Notes: generated by a model from the letters alone, not told the origin. Positions 28,795 to 39,406 are shown, counted from the first letter of the stretch. The stretch: 64,000 bases of DNA from Microcaldota archaeon (GCA_016194335.1 JACQBR010000011.1:62001-126000), one strand, 5' to 3'. Numbers and translations are program-made.

Positions 28795-29346
28795 TTAATT
28801 GAGATTGAAGTTCTTCGACGCGAGCCTCTCCCCATGAATGAATCTCTTATCCAAGAAATGCCTTTCGAGAGCGGGAGTGAGGGCGAGGCAGAGGAGGAAA
28901 TTGCCCGCGAGGTGCATGAGCGTGAACGGAATCTGTCCTGCCACGAGCAGGGGCATCGGGACGCTGAACTGCATCCCGAACGCGAGCATCGTCACCGCGT
29001 CGTAGAGCAGGGTTGCCGGAATGGAGAACGCCGCGTAGGAAAGTGCGCCTGCCGAAGGCCGGGTGGAAAAGAACGAGCCTGCTGCAAATCCGATGAGCCC
29101 GTAGGCAAGAGCGGTGTAGAGCGTCCAGAGGCCGACCTTGCCCATCGCAATGTCGAGGCCGGCAATGGAAGCGGACGAAAAAACCGCCGCCACCAAGGGG
29201 CCGTGCCTCTTGGCAAACGGCAGTCCCGACGCCAGAAGCGGCTCGAAGTTGGGAGGCCGGAATGGGATGAGGCGGAAGAGCAGGCACCCCAGTAGCACCA
29301 GCCCGAACTTTGACGAGTCCTCCAAATCGGAGCTGAGCTTGTTCAT
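28795..29346 (-). CDS. S-component-like integral membrane protein (DUF6580/ECF type)
   Basis: This protein of about 183 aa has five to six membrane helices. RLIPFRPPNFEPLLASGL near the N-terminus, then GKVGLWTLYTALAYGLIGF, resembles the DUF6580/ECF-transporter S-component group, which bind vitamins or metals and work with an energising module. The helices follow the six-segment pattern of such proteins. ATG 29346 fits a TATA-like TTAAATAG about 30 nt upstream. Its neighbours encode DUF4430 (transcobalamin-C-like) proteins, suggesting a corrinoid or similar ligand. That is inference. Confidence 0.6.
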   Translation of the reverse strand: MNKLSSDLEDSSKFGLVLLGCLLFRLIPFRPPNFEPLLASGLPFAKRHGPLVAAVFSSASIAGLDIAMGKVGLWTLYTALAYGLIGFAAGSFFSTRPSAGALSYAAFSIPATLLYDAVTMLAFGMQFSVPMPLLVAGQIPFTLMHLAGNFLLCLALTPALERHFLDKRFIHGERLASKNFNLN

Positions 29347-29375
29347 TGGATACAGCCTTACGCCCTGCAAAAACT

Positions 29376-29384
29376 ATTTAACCA
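29376..29384 (-). promoter_or_regulatory. TATA-like box for the S-component-like gene
   Basis: The minus strand reads GTTAAATAG, 30-38 nt before ATG 29346. Confidence 0.4.
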
Positions 29385-29411
29385 ACCGCAGCCCGCCTGC
29401 AACAAATTTTT

Positions 29412-29825
29412 TCACCCGTAAGGGCTTTTCTCAAAACTCCACACTACAGAATCGCCCGGCTTGAGATGCGCCTTGTCCGCGCCCACGGGAAGAAGCGTCC
29501 CGTCAACGCGATATACCCAATACTTTCCCCCATCGCCGTCTGGAAGCGGCCCGATGCCGGTCACGAGCGTCTCGCCGTAAGCGGCGTAGTATTGCTCGTA
29601 AACGTTGACTCCCCACTTATTTGCCTCGCCTTCGAGAAGCGAAAGCGCAGTCTGGTTTGAAAACGCAATGCCGTCATCGCCAAGCATGGTGCCGTTGCCG
29701 AAGTCGACCCAGAGCGAAACTAACGGGGTGCCCAAAAAATTCTGCGGGGGGCTTTGCGAAACGCAACCCAGGGCAAATAGCGGGACTGCCACAAGAATGG
29801 CAACGATGAAAATTTTATTTCCCAA
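29412..29825 (-). CDS. DUF4430-domain lipoprotein
   Basis: This protein of about 137 aa has a lipoprotein signal (FALGC lipobox at about residue 21). A single DUF4430 domain follows, the fold of the C-terminal domain of transcobalamin and intrinsic factor: SLWVDFGNGT, LLEGEANKWGV, GGKYWVYRVDGTLLPVGADK and LKPGDSVVWSFE. TTG 29825 is chosen because GGGGTG lies 9 nt upstream; a TTG at 29840 is possible. It is translated just after the regulator gene, so the two are probably one transcript. Confidence 0.82.
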   Translation of the reverse strand: MGNKIFIVAILVAVPLFALGCVSQSPPQNFLGTPLVSLWVDFGNGTMLGDDGIAFSNQTALSLLEGEANKWGVNVYEQYYAAYGETLVTGIGPLPDGDGGKYWVYRVDGTLLPVGADKAHLKPGDSVVWSFEKSPYG

Positions 29826-29846
29826 GCAAAGACACCCCAAAAAAGG

Positions 29847-30488
29847 CTACATCCCCTCCATCAGCGCAAGAACCGCGCCCCACGCGCCCCTCTCTGCGCC
29901 GGGCTTGCGGGGGGAATAGCTCAGGATGACCGCGTCGCCCTCGCAGGGGGAGAGGACGGACTCGATTTCCTTCTCCACGTCGGGAGTGATGAAATTCCTG
30001 TCGTCAAAACTCCCCGTGAGGTGGAGCTTTCCCTTCCTGACCAGGACCGTGGCGCCCGAAGCGCCCGCGCGCAAGGCGGCGTCGCGCTCCTCAAGCCCCA
30101 TTCTCACCTTTGAAGCGCCTCCCGCCACGACGGCGCCCACGGCGCGCTCGCCGAAAGTGATTGCGCTTGCGCGCACGGGGGAGACGCGGCTTACAACGCA
30201 GGCGAGTTGCCCGAAAAGGGCGCGGCCCCTCCTGGCGGGGATGCAGCCCCTTTTCCGAACTTCCACTAGCCCTGCGGAGGCAAGCGCCCTGATGGCGCTT
30301 CTCACGCTCCCCTCGCCCAGCTCGAGCGTGGAACTCAACTCCTGCCGGCTTATCGGCTGGCGCTTGCAAACCGTCCAGAACGCCCGCACCAAATCCAGGG
30401 AATCGAAAGCTGGCGCGGGCCCGAACTTGGGCCGGGAATATTTGCGGAGGAACGCGATGAAGCGGCCGAGTTCCCCGGAACTCCTCAT
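29847..30488 (-). CDS. Winged-helix regulator with DUF4443-like domain
   Basis: This 213-aa archaeal regulator has an N-terminal winged helix (about residues 25-95; QPISRQELSSTLELGEGSVR then ALASAGLVEVRKRG). The C-terminal ligand-type domain resembles DUF4443 (FGERAVGAVVAGGASKVRMG, GDAVILSYSPRKPG). It heads the minus-strand half of the DUF4430 cluster, with a perfect palindrome in the divergent promoter. A TATA-like ATATTTAA about 25 nt upstream of ATG 30488 implies a leaderless transcript. It is a good candidate for the local regulator. Confidence 0.75.
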   Translation of the reverse strand: MRSSGELGRFIAFLRKYSRPKFGPAPAFDSLDLVRAFWTVCKRQPISRQELSSTLELGEGSVRSAIRALASAGLVEVRKRGCIPARRGRALFGQLACVVSRVSPVRASAITFGERAVGAVVAGGASKVRMGLEERDAALRAGASGATVLVRKGKLHLTGSFDDRNFITPDVEKEIESVLSPCEGDAVILSYSPRKPGAERGAWGAVLALMEGM

Positions 30489-30509
30489 ACGGGGGTTTGG
30501 GGGGCAACG

Positions 30510-30540
30510 GTTAAATATCTATTGGATGAATCATCCAATA
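30510..30540. promoter_or_regulatory. Divergent promoter with 21-bp palindrome
   Basis: Arms TATTGGATGA (30520-30529) and TCATCCAATA (30531-30540) form a perfect inverted repeat around one base. Next to it, at 30511-30519, is the TATA box of the minus-strand regulator. The site lies between the regulator and the divergent surface-protein genes, the expected place for an operator. Confidence 0.6.
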
Positions 30541-30565
30541 ACTGGAATTTGTGGGTGATGCTTGC

Positions 30566-31636
30566 TTGAAAAACTACGCTGCGCTGTCCATGGCAATCCT
30601 CGTTCTCGCCGCATTCGCCTCGGCATCCATCACGGTGAAATTCCATTTCCCGCCCAACTCCGGACGGACGGACTTTTCCCAAACCGCCGACGCCTCGTGC
30701 GGCCAGGCGGAGAAATGCTTCAGGCAGGCCGCAAGCCTTGGGGGGACGAACTATCCCGCAACGGGCTTTTTCGCCTGCCCCGGCCATCCCGAAGTTACGC
30801 AGAACTTCTTTGCGGAGGCCGTAAACGGCGTGATTGCCAACTACACGCGCGACTCGGCGTACTGGGATTTTGCGGCTGGAGGCGCGAGTGCCCCGGTGGG
30901 AATGAGCTGCTACTTCGTTTCCGACGGGGACGCCATTGAGCTGAACTACAACGGGGCGTACACCGGCCCGGTGATAAGCGACGCTCCCGCGTCCGCATCC
31001 GGCACGCCCGGCCTGTTGCAGGGGAACGCGTGCATCAACGCCTACCAGGCGGCGTGGCCGGACGAGCAGTGGCCGCAAATTTGCGGCAAGAAATCCGACT
31101 GGGCCTGGCTGGAAAAAAACGGCTGGGTCAGGCCGTTCACGGGATATTCGGCCGGTAAAACTGCGGGCCTGCAGGCGGAAAACAAGTCAGATGAAAAAAC
31201 GGCAACTGGCCCGCAGGCGGAAAACAAGTCCTATGCACCGTCAACTTCCCCGGAGCAAAACGCCGGCCAAATGAAAATTGCCGCAACTCCAGGCACTCCC
31301 CCGAAAGCGCCAGTTGCAAGAAAATCAAGTTTTCCCGCTAAGGCGCCAAATGCCCAGAGCGCTATATCTTACCCAAAGCCGATAGGGGCGATTTCCGGCC
31401 CGCTTGGCATCCCCAAAAGCAATGCGGCTGGAATAATCTCCGGCGATGCGGACATTCCGCAAAAGGAAGCGGTCTTGGCCGCGGCACTCCCGCCAAGAAC
31501 CGAAGCGAATCCCCAAAGCGAATCTCCCAAACCCGCCACGGGATTTGCAACCGCGGGAACCGCACCTGCATCCGCAGGAATGTTTTTCCTTCTCGCAATC
31601 GCCGGTGCGCTGTGCTTAAAGAAGTTGTGGGCATGA
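30566..31636 (+). CDS. Surface protein with DUF4430-like domain and C-terminal membrane anchor
   Basis: This protein of about 356 aa has a signal peptide (about residues 1-20), then a domain of about 120 residues (ITVKFHFPPN, YWDFAAGG, CYFVSDGDAIELNYNG). Its spacing of conserved aromatic, Gly and Asp residues resembles DUF4430, with added Cys pairs. A Pro/Ala/Ser-rich linker (about 190-325) leads to a C-terminal hydrophobic helix and KKLWA. TTG 30566 follows a perfect Shine-Dalgarno GGTGAT by 6 nt; GTG 30551 is less likely. The gene overlaps the next one, so they are co-transcribed. Confidence 0.72.
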   Translation: MKNYAALSMAILVLAAFASASITVKFHFPPNSGRTDFSQTADASCGQAEKCFRQAASLGGTNYPATGFFACPGHPEVTQNFFAEAVNGVIANYTRDSAYWDFAAGGASAPVGMSCYFVSDGDAIELNYNGAYTGPVISDAPASASGTPGLLQGNACINAYQAAWPDEQWPQICGKKSDWAWLEKNGWVRPFTGYSAGKTAGLQAENKSDEKTATGPQAENKSYAPSTSPEQNAGQMKIAATPGTPPKAPVARKSSFPAKAPNAQSAISYPKPIGAISGPLGIPKSNAAGIISGDADIPQKEAVLAAALPPRTEANPQSESPKPATGFATAGTAPASAGMFFLLAIAGALCLKKLWA

Positions 31637-33300
31637 AAATACAATCCGCAAACCGGCGGGAGCCTGAACGCACAATGGGAAAGAACACCGCGGCCATTTT
31701 CATCGCCCTTCTAATCGTCCCCCAGGTTCTTGCCGCAAATCCCTCCAACGCAGGCGCGCCCGCGTTCAGGGCGCTCGAATGGCTCAAGCTCAACGCCAAC
31801 CAGGCCTCTCCCAACCCCCTTGCCGACGCGCCTTCGCTCCTCGCATCAAACTCCCTTGAGGGCGAGACGGAATATTCGTTCTCGCGCTCGAGGCTGCTCA
31901 ACCGCGAGCTGGCCAACGGGAACGACTGGATTTACGGGGCGAGCGCGGAGAGCGACGTAATCGGCATTGTGCTTTACGCGGTGGAAGGGTCCAAACTCGC
32001 GGAAAGCCCCTCGGAACAGAAGGCGCTTGGCAAATTGGGGGACATGAGGGGGGAACGGGGATTTCGGGGATGGTTTGACGCGTCTGCCGGCGGGGCTTCG
32101 CAAAGCAGCGTCGACACGGCGTGGGCGCTTATGGGGCTGGCGGCGGCATCCCGGCTTGACGACACGGTGAGAAGCAAGGCCGTCTCATATTTGTACTCGC
32201 TGCAGAATCCCGACGGCGGCTTCAACCTCACGGCAAACGTTTCCCACTCCGGCCTCTACTCGCTCGGGCCCAATCCAGAATCGATCACCGCCCTCGTTCT
32301 CGTCGCGCTTGCGGACGCTGGGGAGCGGAAGAACAACCGCATCGTGGATGGAATTTCATTCCTGCAGAACTCCTCAATCTCGTGCTATGCAGGCTCCCCA
32401 TTCGCGCAGTCGATGGCTGCCGTGGCGTTTTTGCAGTGGGGCCAAAACGCGTACGCGCGCTCTGCGGCATCGGACCTTCCTTCGGAGCAGCACGCGGACG
32501 GCGGGTTTTCAGACCCCTCGCGGCTTTCAAACGCCTCAAACCCGCTGGACACGGCAATAGCCGCCTGGGCAATGTCCCAAGCCGGGATTGTAAACCTCGC
32601 GGGCGGGGAGAACCAATCGTGCGCCCCTTCGAACAAGACGGCAAGGGTGGGGGTTGTCGCGTCGTTCGCCAACGGGACTACGGCCGCCTATTGCGTCACT
32701 GTGCAAAACGGCGCAAGCGCGAGGGAGGCGCTGGAGAAGACAGGCCTCCAAACCGAATGGAGCCCCGCGGGGCCGTACGGCTCGGCGCTTGCAAAATTGG
32801 GCGACCTTGGATGCGCCGCTTCAGACCCGTGGTGCCAGTGCAGGAACCAGAACGGATGCTGCCTCGCGTGGAACCTCTGGGTGATGAATTCAACTGAAAA
32901 AAAATGGGAATTCTCCAGGCTCGGCTACTCCTCCACCCTGCTTTCCGACGGGGAGGTTTTCGCATCCGTGTGGAGCGGGGATGCCGCCAAGCTTCCGTCC
33001 GATACGGATTTTGGGGAAATCTGCGGCAGCGGGAGGGAGGGAATGGCGTTTTCGAAAACCAACCTCACTACCGCATTGGACGCGGCATGCAATTCCTGCA
33101 CCTCCAACTCCCAATGTGCCTCGGGCAAATGCGACAACGGAAAGTGCGTCAGGCAAGGCGGCGCGGCGTCAGGCGGAGCGAAGCAGGGGACGGCCCGGCC
33201 TGGCGCGCCCTCCGGCCAGGATTACCTCACCGCACTTGCGGCGGTAGCAGTGTTTGCAATCCTGCTTTACGCGGCCACCGTGGTCTTCAAGCGCGCCTGA
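31633..33300 (+). CDS. Transcobalamin-like surface protein: alpha/alpha toroid plus DUF4430 plus membrane anchor
   Basis: This protein of about 555 aa has a signal peptide (QVLAANPS) and an alpha/alpha-toroid domain of prenyltransferase/squalene-cyclase type (about residues 35-325). The toroid carries repeated helices with LYSLQNPDGGFNL and DGGFSDPSRLSN. A DUF4430-like domain follows (about 335-455; TVQNGASAREALEKTGLQ, CCLAWNLWVMN, VFASVW), then a Cys-rich knot (CNSCTSNSQCASGKCDNGKC), a linker and a C-terminal membrane helix. The toroid-then-DUF4430 order is that of eukaryotic intrinsic factor and transcobalamin, which bind cobalamin between the two domains. ATG 31633 overlaps the previous stop; ATG 31675 gives a tighter signal peptide. 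Confidence 0.75.
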   Translation: MKIQSANRREPERTMGKNTAAIFIALLIVPQVLAANPSNAGAPAFRALEWLKLNANQASPNPLADAPSLLASNSLEGETEYSFSRSRLLNRELANGNDWIYGASAESDVIGIVLYAVEGSKLAESPSEQKALGKLGDMRGERGFRGWFDASAGGASQSSVDTAWALMGLAAASRLDDTVRSKAVSYLYSLQNPDGGFNLTANVSHSGLYSLGPNPESITALVLVALADAGERKNNRIVDGISFLQNSSISCYAGSPFAQSMAAVAFLQWGQNAYARSAASDLPSEQHADGGFSDPSRLSNASNPLDTAIAAWAMSQAGIVNLAGGENQSCAPSNKTARVGVVASFANGTTAAYCVTVQNGASAREALEKTGLQTEWSPAGPYGSALAKLGDLGCAASDPWCQCRNQNGCCLAWNLWVMNSTEKKWEFSRLGYSSTLLSDGEVFASVWSGDAAKLPSDTDFGEICGSGREGMAFSKTNLTTALDAACNSCTSNSQCASGKCDNGKCVRQGGAASGGAKQGTARPGAPSGQDYLTALAAVAVFAILLYAATVVFKRA

Positions 33301-35110: not shown

Positions 35111-35962
35111 ATGGCCAGCGTTCCTCTTGAACGGGTGACGGTCACCATCGAATCGGGCCTGCTTAAGGCCGTTGACGCCACGGTGGAGAATGGAGGGGCG
35201 AAAAGCCGCAGCCACGCGTTCGACACGCTCCTGCGCCGCGCGCTTTCTTCCATCCAACTTCGCAAGGCCCTCATCCTCGCCGGGGGGAGCGCGCAGGAGC
35301 TTTCGGGCCCGGGCGGGAGGGAAATCAAGCCGCTGGTGGAAGTGGGCGGCATTCCGGTGATTGAAAGGCTGCTCCTGCAGCTGAAGCGCTACGGCATCGA
35401 GGAGGCAGTCATCATCGTGGGATTCGGCGGGGAGAGGATAGTTTCGCGGCTGCAGAACGGCGAGCAATTGGGAATAAAGATTTCCTACGTTTGGGAAGAC
35501 GCGCAAAGCGGGCTGGGAAGCGCGGGGTGCCTCAAGCTCGCGCAGGCGAGATTCTCCGAGCCTTTCCTGCTCTCCTATTCCGACGTGCTTTACGACGGCC
35601 TGGACCTCTGCGACCTCAACCAGTTCCACCGCGCCAACGGCGGCCTGGCAACCCTCGTGCTGGCAAACGCGGAAAAGGCGCGCTCGTTCGGCGTGGCGAA
35701 AATGTCCGGCTCGCGAGTGACTGATTTTTCGGAAAAGCCCGCAAGCGCGGAAAGCCACCTCGTGAATGCGGGAGTGTGCGCGTGCGACCCCGCAATCTTC
35801 TCCTTCATCCCGAAGAAGGCGCCAACAAGCCTCGAGCGCGACCTCCTTCCGTCAATCGCGCACAAGGGAAAGCTCGTCGGGTATGTCTACGGCGGGGCGT
35901 GGTTCGACGTGGGAAAGGAACGCGGGCTGCAGGAGGCGCAGAGGCATTTCGAGGGGAAGTGA
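35111..35962 (+). CDS. Sugar nucleotidyltransferase with N-terminal ribbon-helix-helix domain
   Basis: This 283-aa protein has an N-terminal ribbon-helix-helix (CopG-like) domain (about residues 6-48; RVTVTIESGLLKAVDATVEN, AKSRSHAFDTLLRRAL). It is fused to a GT-A nucleotidyltransferase (52-283) with ALILAGGSAQELSG, REIKPLVEVGGIPVI, YSDVLYDG and GAWFDVGKERGLQEA. The usual GGxGTRL motif is altered to GGSAQEL, lacking the Arg. The enzyme half would make an NDP-sugar; the DNA-binding half suggests autoregulation or dimerisation. Confidence 0.85.
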   Translation: MASVPLERVTVTIESGLLKAVDATVENGGAKSRSHAFDTLLRRALSSIQLRKALILAGGSAQELSGPGGREIKPLVEVGGIPVIERLLLQLKRYGIEEAVIIVGFGGERIVSRLQNGEQLGIKISYVWEDAQSGLGSAGCLKLAQARFSEPFLLSYSDVLYDGLDLCDLNQFHRANGGLATLVLANAEKARSFGVAKMSGSRVTDFSEKPASAESHLVNAGVCACDPAIFSFIPKKAPTSLERDLLPSIAHKGKLVGYVYGGAWFDVGKERGLQEAQRHFEGK

Positions 35963-37470: not shown

Positions 37471-37493
37471 CGCGGCCGCCCTAATTGTTTGCG

Positions 37494-38399
37494 ATGGACT
37501 TCATTCCCGCGATTGCCGCACTGGGGCTGGCCGGCCTTCTTGCAAAGCTCACCGACGCCGTCGTTGACGACGGGATCAAGCCCCGCACTCTCGGATGGCT
37601 CGACTCGGCAATGGGCTTGGCCTACGGGATTATCGGGGGGCTGGCCGCGACGGGGGGAACGCAGTTTGCCACCGTCGTGATTGCCATCACCCTCGGCGTG
37701 CTTGCGGGAGGGAAGATCGACAGGCGGGCGCATCAGTACGCGATTGCGGGCCTGCTGGGGGTGGTTGCGCTTGTTGGGCTGCCAGCAGTGAACGTTTGGA
37801 TGCTTATCCTGCTCATAGCCGCGGCGGCGGTTGACGAGAAGGTGAGCGACATTGCCGAGTTCAGGCGCGACATCACCGCAAAAATCCTTAAGGCGCGCAT
37901 CGTGCTCGAAATCGCGTCATTGGGAGCGTCGGCATACTTCAACGACTTCACCTATTTCTTCGCAGTGCTTTCTTTCGACATCGGCTATCATGCCGCGGAA
38001 TGGCTGGCTGGGCGGATGGTTCCCGACTCGAGGATCGAAGGCACCCACCTGATTATGGACCTTTCCGACTGCAGGCGCGACAGGCTTGCTGACGCGAACT
38101 ACGTGAGGCGCTTCCTGCGCGAACTGCCATCCAAAGTGGGAATGACGCGAATCGGCGAGCCTGTGGTTCACCGCCTCCCCCCCTCGCAGAGGGGGGCGGA
38201 CCCCGGCGGGGTGAGCGGGTTTGTCGTCATTGCCGAAAGCCACATTTCCATCCACACTTTCCCCGCAACGCGCGAGGCGTCGGTTGACGTGTTTTCCTGC
38301 AGGCCCTTCGACGCGGCGAAGCTGGAAAAGCTGGTGAAGAAAAGCCTTGGGGCGGGCAAGATTGATAGCCAGGTGATCCAAAGGTGGAGACGGGAGTAG
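37494..38399 (+). CDS. S-adenosylmethionine decarboxylase fused to an N-terminal membrane domain
   Basis: This protein of about 301 aa. Residues about 1-165 form five to six membrane helices (ALGLAGLLAKLTDAVVDDG, AMGLAYGIIGGLAA, LLGVVALVGLPAV, FAVLSFDIGYHAAEWLAG). Residues about 180-301 are an AdoMet decarboxylase proenzyme of prokaryotic SpeD type. GTHLIMDLSDC and AESHISIHTFP are conserved; Ser252, the second Ser of that motif, is the expected self-cleavage and pyruvoyl-forming residue. VDVFSCRPFD has the catalytic Cys. It would make decarboxylated AdoMet for polyamines. SpeD is normally soluble and about 120 aa, so the fusion is unusual. No speE is nearby. Confidence 0.82.
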   Translation: MDFIPAIAALGLAGLLAKLTDAVVDDGIKPRTLGWLDSAMGLAYGIIGGLAATGGTQFATVVIAITLGVLAGGKIDRRAHQYAIAGLLGVVALVGLPAVNVWMLILLIAAAAVDEKVSDIAEFRRDITAKILKARIVLEIASLGASAYFNDFTYFFAVLSFDIGYHAAEWLAGRMVPDSRIEGTHLIMDLSDCRRDRLADANYVRRFLRELPSKVGMTRIGEPVVHRLPPSQRGADPGGVSGFVVIAESHISIHTFPATREASVDVFSCRPFDAAKLEKLVKKSLGAGKIDSQVIQRWRRE

Positions 38400-39263: not shown

Positions 39264-39406
39264 CGCCGGGGACGAGATTTGAACTCGCAAGGACTATGCG
39301 TCCACTGGTTCTCCCTTGAAAGCCGGTTGGTAGAAACCAACGCGCCCAACGGTGGGCTTGAGGCCATTTCGAGACCAGCGCGATGACCGGGTTCCGCCAC
39401 CCCGGC
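39264..39406 (-). tRNA. tRNA-Ser(CGA) with a 57-nt intron
   Basis: Acceptor stem GCCGGGG (39400-39406) pairs with CCCCGGC (39265-39271), with discriminator G at 39264. The D arm has GCG/CGC. The anticodon stem CUGGU/ACCAG encloses CU-CGA-A. A long variable arm (GGAC GCATA GUCC) and T arm GCGAG-UUCAAAU-CUCGU complete a class II tRNA of about 86 nt. The intron (about 39311-39367) sits after position 37, the canonical archaeal site. CCA is not encoded. The CGA anticodon, G73 and long variable arm indicate serine. Confidence 0.9.

Follow-up and report, generated by a model that had tools for sequence, protein, structure and literature searches.

A probable corrinoid capture-and-uptake cluster with transcobalamin-like surface proteins in a Micrarchaeota archaeon

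How do small, presumably host-dependent archaea of the DPANN group acquire their vitamins? To our knowledge this is largely unknown, and the question is raised by a gene cluster at positions 28,795 to 33,300 of a 64,000-nucleotide stretch (the window) from a Microcaldota archaeon (JACQBR010000011.1:62001-126000). The window lies on contig C15 of a genome (G000) whose assembly comprises 1.18 Mb in 28 contigs and is 85.4% complete, and whose order is placed, via named relatives, in the DPANN phylum Candidatus Micrarchaeota. A preliminary description had named five open reading frames, all of which were found in place: a membrane protein like the S-components of energy-coupling factor (ECF) transporters, a regulator, and three surface proteins with domains related to vitamin B12 carriers. 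We consider it likely that these genes allow a Micrarchaeota archaeon in need of vitamin B12 to capture and take up corrinoid. Comparisons cover 29 genomes of the order and 301 of the class, all incomplete assemblies, and the P values for co-occurrence treat genomes as independent, without correction for phylogeny.

The three surface proteins provide the link to B12 carriers. The product of 29412-29840 (minus strand) combines a DUF4430 (transcobalamin-like beta-grasp) domain (PF14478, E = 2.5e-10) with the lipobox FALGC and, judged by its sequence, is a likely membrane-anchored corrinoid binder. On the plus strand, 30551-31636 encodes a secreted DUF4430 protein with a low-complexity stalk and a C-terminal membrane helix as anchor. 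Its PF14478 match falls just short of the cut-off in the protein search (8.7e-5; 23.3 bits versus 23.8) and above it in the genome search (26.3 bits), and the orthologous domain in toroid fusions of two relatives (G009 and G010; identity 38-43%) matches DUF4430 at 3.4e-8 and 1.3e-6. Among relatives, DUF4430 matches reach 5e-12. The third protein, encoded by 31612-33300 (plus strand), probably starts at ATG 31633, where an ATGA overlaps the upstream stop, or at ATG 31675. It is composed of a secreted alpha/alpha toroid (SQHop_cyclase_C, 5.3e-9; TED, 5.6e-5), a DUF4430-like beta-grasp domain, a Cys-rich stretch, and a C-terminal helix as membrane anchor.

The second domain of this toroid protein has no direct match to the Pfam DUF4430 model. 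It aligns by hhalign (E = 3.7e-15) with a secreted partner of the S-like gene in another order (G118-G122), and one member of that family matches DUF4430 at E = 0.014; at the level of sequence the domain is a divergent relative, DUF4430-like only through this homologous family. Of the three DUF4430 or DUF4430-like neighbors described initially, two are confirmed by Pfam and the third only by this indirect route. The proposed order of toroid followed by DUF4430, that of transcobalamin, is canonical in G009 and G010, where the DUF4430 domain is fused behind a toroid matching in the 1e-10 range; in the window it holds only with the divergent second domain, the canonical DUF4430 being carried by the 30551 protein.

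When profiles of the two canonical DUF4430 groups were run against every sequence in the PDB, the matches with E ≤ 1 were confined to a DUF4430 structure (3u7z), haptocorrin, transcobalamin-2, and intrinsic factor; these matches are weak one by one (E 0.014-0.84) and specific as a set. A profile of three DUF4430 lipoproteins retrieved, weakly, only haptocorrin and the DUF4430 structure. In addition, the Foldseek matches of the toroid protein model include transcobalamin and haptocorrin, with alignments across both domains at 11-14% identity; in this model the toroid mostly reaches pLDDT 55-85 and the second domain about 35, and only two alignment rows are usable.

The likely membrane translocator, probably related to DUF6580, is encoded by 28795-29370 (minus strand). 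Its AlphaFold model contains six helices (pLDDT 81, pTM 0.77), and the best Foldseek matches in the PDB are the ECF S-components PanT, FolT (TM-score up to 0.67), ThiT, RibU, and BioY. S-components occupy all of ranks 1 to 15, with no competing fold among them; probabilities are 0.98-1.00 (ranks 1 to 14) and E values are modest (7e-3 to 0.46). The likeness to S-components that had been proposed for this product is thus borne out by its predicted model, which has the S-component fold. Residues R25, P32, N33, E35, P36, D65, W74, and T75, among others, are common to eight orthologues, two of which match DUF6580 (PF20221; best, 5.8e-6), while the window protein itself is without a match.

Toroid and S-like genes occur together across the relatives. 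Within the order, seven genomes carry the toroid and eight the S-like gene, with all seven toroid genomes in the overlap (P = 5e-6); within the class, the numbers are 7 for the toroid, 35 for the S profile, and 7 for both (P = 1.6e-7). Because the two genes lie on different contigs in five of the seven toroid genomes, the association reflects co-inheritance rather than mere proximity. In G015 the stop of the toroid gene overlaps the start of the S-like gene, and in four genomes of the other order (G118-G122) the DUF4430-like gene overlaps it. In G015 and G016, moreover, NrdR, the class II ribonucleotide reductase (RNR) NrdJ, and, after a gap of about 6 bp, an orthologue of the 29412 DUF4430 lipoprotein are followed by the divergently oriented regulator and toroid genes. 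A conserved neighborhood in relatives had been set beforehand as a test of the proposal, and both co-occurrence and gene order are kept.

Class II RNR depends on adenosylcobalamin. It is the single recognizable RNR of the cluster's own genome and is full length (1860 bits versus a cut-off of 1737); no NrdB, NrdD, or further RNR large subunit was found in the 85% complete assembly. The genome also encodes a PduO-type cobalamin adenosyltransferase (2.2e-51). CbiC, a marker of corrin ring synthesis, is absent from 29 of 29 genomes of the order, and the BtuC-type permease FecCD is absent from all cluster genomes. Since no match to the B12-binding domain PF02310 was obtained in the own genome, its B12 need rests on the class II RNR. 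On these sequence grounds the organism seems to be a B12 auxotroph with a B12-dependent enzyme. Across the order, all eight S-positive genomes encode either a class II RNR or a protein with a B12-binding domain, versus 10 of 21 others (P = 0.01), and the cluster is missing from all six class I RNR genomes, which is not significant alone (P = 0.15). The RNR operons of relatives, the sole class II RNR, PduO, the lack of CbiC, FecCD, and CbiQ (EcfT, the ECF transmembrane partner), and the co-occurrence combine to make a corrinoid the most likely ligand, as the preliminary description had suggested.

In the mechanism that we propose, the membrane-anchored toroid and DUF4430/beta-grasp proteins would bind corrinoid outside the cell in the manner of transcobalamin, with the ligand held between toroid and beta-grasp. 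Acting in succession or as a complex, they would pass it to the S-component-like protein, which would carry it through the membrane; inside the cell, the PduO-type enzyme would adenosylate it for the class II RNR. The hand-over, the direction, and the energy source of transport are steps that we infer. This would amount to a concrete, testable B12-acquisition system for DPANN archaea, linked by gene order to a B12-needing enzyme, and would place the architecture of the human B12 carriers (toroid plus DUF4430) in archaea that need B12 and apparently cannot make it. It also offers a candidate function for the uncharacterized DUF6580-related membrane family and for the PH0730-like regulator described below.

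Several observations weigh against a corrinoid as the ligand. None of the cluster proteins matches Cobalamin_bind (PF01122) in Pfam up to E = 10, and the B12 S-components CbrT and BtuM are absent from the fold matches listed for the S-like protein. A sequence profile of the toroid retrieves squalene-hopene cyclases and TED domains from the PDB and no intrinsic factor, so the toroid sequence alone is no argument for B12. No cobalamin riboswitch was found. Seven class II RNR genomes (G004, G017, G019, G020, G021, G023, and G024) lack the cluster, which hence is not the sole B12 route in the order. In G118, no RNR was found in the 53% of the genome that was read, and in G002 the toroid lies downstream of NrdR-NrdD-NrdG-NrdD, a class III RNR, not class II; class III RNR needs no B12. 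Finally, absences in the own genome are soft because its assembly is 85% complete. The G002 locus (L012:2572-10120) is in itself an RNR island: NrdG lies between two class III RNR genes, which NrdR precedes and the toroid gene follows. G002 also encodes five B12-binding-domain proteins. A BtuC-type permease as a mutually exclusive alternative in those class II RNR genomes that lack the cluster was considered and not established, only G004 being above the cut-off.

Another ligand would leave much of this architecture in place. The cluster could import a vitamin or cofactor of the lipoate, biotin, thiamine, riboflavin, or folate type, its transcobalamin likeness being that of a generic ligand-binding fold; the S-like model indeed matches S-components for pantothenate, folate, thiamine, riboflavin, and biotin, a lipoate-ligase-like gene can be read from sequence, along with a pyruvate dehydrogenase complex, on the cluster's contig (L017), and Burroughs et al. 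(2007) suggested that archaeal members may scavenge another metabolite (PMC1796856). That suggestion, however, was based on B12-making archaea, and the genomes here are without CbiC. Linkage and co-occurrence favor B12-dependent enzymes, and the DUF4430 profiles retrieve B12 carriers and no other binders; we regard a different cofactor as unlikely. Less probable still is that the toroid and DUF4430 proteins serve adhesion or host contact, with the S-like protein a transporter of unrelated function co-inherited by chance. Strict co-occurrence with the toroid, together with the S-like gene overlaps in G015 and G118-G122, argues for one pathway comprising surface proteins and S-like protein, even though the surface proteins are anchored and Ser/Thr/Pro-rich, their toroids resemble the TED domains of complement-like proteins, and these archaea presumably live on other cells. 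A terpene cyclase reading of the toroid also seems unlikely, on the grounds of secretion and of co-inheritance with the S-like gene.

Within the corrinoid model, the energizing of transport is a question of its own. A search of the same genome for corrinoid-dependent enzymes and an ECF module, as the preliminary description had advised, recovered the class II RNR and PduO and no energizing module: in the 85% complete assembly, neither CbiQ by profile nor EcfA/EcfT by tblastn was detected. The only ABC-type ATPases in nearly the whole assembly (L089-L092, L098-L102, L114-L132, L138-L181) are UvrA and SufC. That nearly a whole genome should be devoid of a recognizable transporter ABC ATPase is striking for any cell.

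Either an ECF module resides in the missing part of the assembly or, by analogy with BtuM, the S-like protein may act alone; BtuM works in organisms without an ECF module and has been reported to act alone (PMC6072759). An ordinary ECF transporter with its module missing from the assembly, a possibility that overlaps with the corrinoid model and does not compete with it, is conceivable given that EcfT with adjacent ATPases is present in four of the eight cluster genomes. The modules of G003, G009, and G015, however, adjoin an S-like gene of their own, CbiQ is without a match in G000, G002, G016, and G026, and the paucity of ABC-type ATPases in the own genome speaks against it as well, leaving this explanation doubtful. 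Equally tentative is a B12 importer without an ABC ATPase, in which surface transcobalamins would load a solitary S-component-type protein and a symbiotic archaeon would scavenge corrinoid, possibly from its host cell, for its only RNR.

Control of the system appears to be exerted from the center of the cluster. A PH0730-like transcription regulator with a winged helix and a DUF4443 domain (29847-30488, minus strand; PF14544, 3e-19; PDB 2p8t, 3e-11) heads a minus-strand operon: the lipoprotein gene comes 6 bp after it and the S-like gene about 40 bp after that. An alanyl-tRNA-editing-like gene lies 5 bp further on. This operon and that of the two plus-strand surface proteins diverge from a 62-bp gap containing a TATA-like TTAAATAT (30511-30518) directly upstream of an operator-like perfect 21-bp palindrome, TATTGGATGAATCATCCAATA (30520-30540). 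The winged-helix regulator and palindromic site said to separate the two halves of the cluster are accordingly both present. None of 100 shuffles gives a match to the palindrome within ≤3 mismatches, and its conserved core, TTGGATGANNCATCCAA, occurs as a single site per genome in G000, G009, G010, G015, and G016, each time between regulator and toroid operon, which are divergent in all five. In G026 the S-like gene is on a separate contig, and a gene for the same regulator type is divergent to it. The PH0730-like protein, bound to the central palindrome, may control both operons, probably as a repressor, a sign of regulation that we infer. No further site was found in front of RNR, PduO, or distant S-like genes, and with a single site per genome the idea of a wider regulon was rejected; palindrome matches in G007, G014, and G022 sit in loci without any cluster gene.

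The idea of toroid and DUF4430 proteins in B12 scavenging has already been published for bacteria. In bacteria that have CbiO/CbiQ genes, Burroughs et al. (2007) described toroid-SLBB (DUF4430) fusions as well as SLBB surface proteins that occur in pairs; they predicted a role in B12 scavenging, leaving the archaeal ligand open because many archaea make B12 (PMC1796856). Like these Gram-positive proteins (PMC1796856), the archaeal ones are secreted and anchored, include toroid-SLBB fusions whose operon encodes another, paralogous SLBB protein, and lie near a vitamin-transporter-type membrane gene in hosts that seem to lack B12 synthesis. Unlike them, they belong to DPANN archaea, with CbiO/CbiQ absent from the cluster and undetected in the rest of the genome, and are accompanied by a DUF6580-related S protein, a PH0730-like regulator with a conserved palindrome, and, in relatives, a class II RNR encoded in the operon. 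What is new is the occurrence in DPANN archaea, the linkage to RNR, the operator, and an S protein that is related to DUF6580 and apparently solitary.

Intrinsic factor, transcobalamin, and haptocorrin have in common with the archaeal proteins the order of toroid and DUF4430 (in G009/G010, and in the window with the divergent second domain), and differ in that the archaeal proteins are membrane-anchored, lack PF01122 matches, and show low identity in structural alignments. The 28795 product has the six-helix fold of ECF S-components, reaches its highest TM-score with FolT, and, like BtuM, occurs in a genome without a detected ECF module (PMC6072759); it is not close in sequence to S-components, BtuM and CbrT included. 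The proposed capture of corrinoid by a surface lipoprotein would resemble that by BtuG2 of Bacteroides, which captures corrinoid for a transporter (PMC6143338), yet BtuG2 is of another protein family and part of a Gram-negative outer membrane system.

Near the cluster, 35111-35962 of the window encodes a ribbon-helix-helix and nucleotidyltransferase protein whose counterpart in G026 (L027:11706-12557) adjoins the regulator/S-like pair; its presence near the cluster in both genomes marks it as part of a neighborhood shared despite the split cluster in G026. On the same contig C15, by sequence reading, the lipoate-ligase-like gene adjoins the pyruvate dehydrogenase complex (L017:595-6936); lipoate may thus be a further cofactor that has to be scavenged. 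At 37485-38399 (plus strand), a predicted membrane domain of about 185 residues is fused N-terminally to S-adenosylmethionine decarboxylase (PF02675, 1.4e-28), an unusual arrangement. Finally, a 143-nucleotide tRNA at 39264-39406 (minus strand), identified by Rfam (39.5 bits) and missed by ARAGORN, may contain an intron in view of its length.

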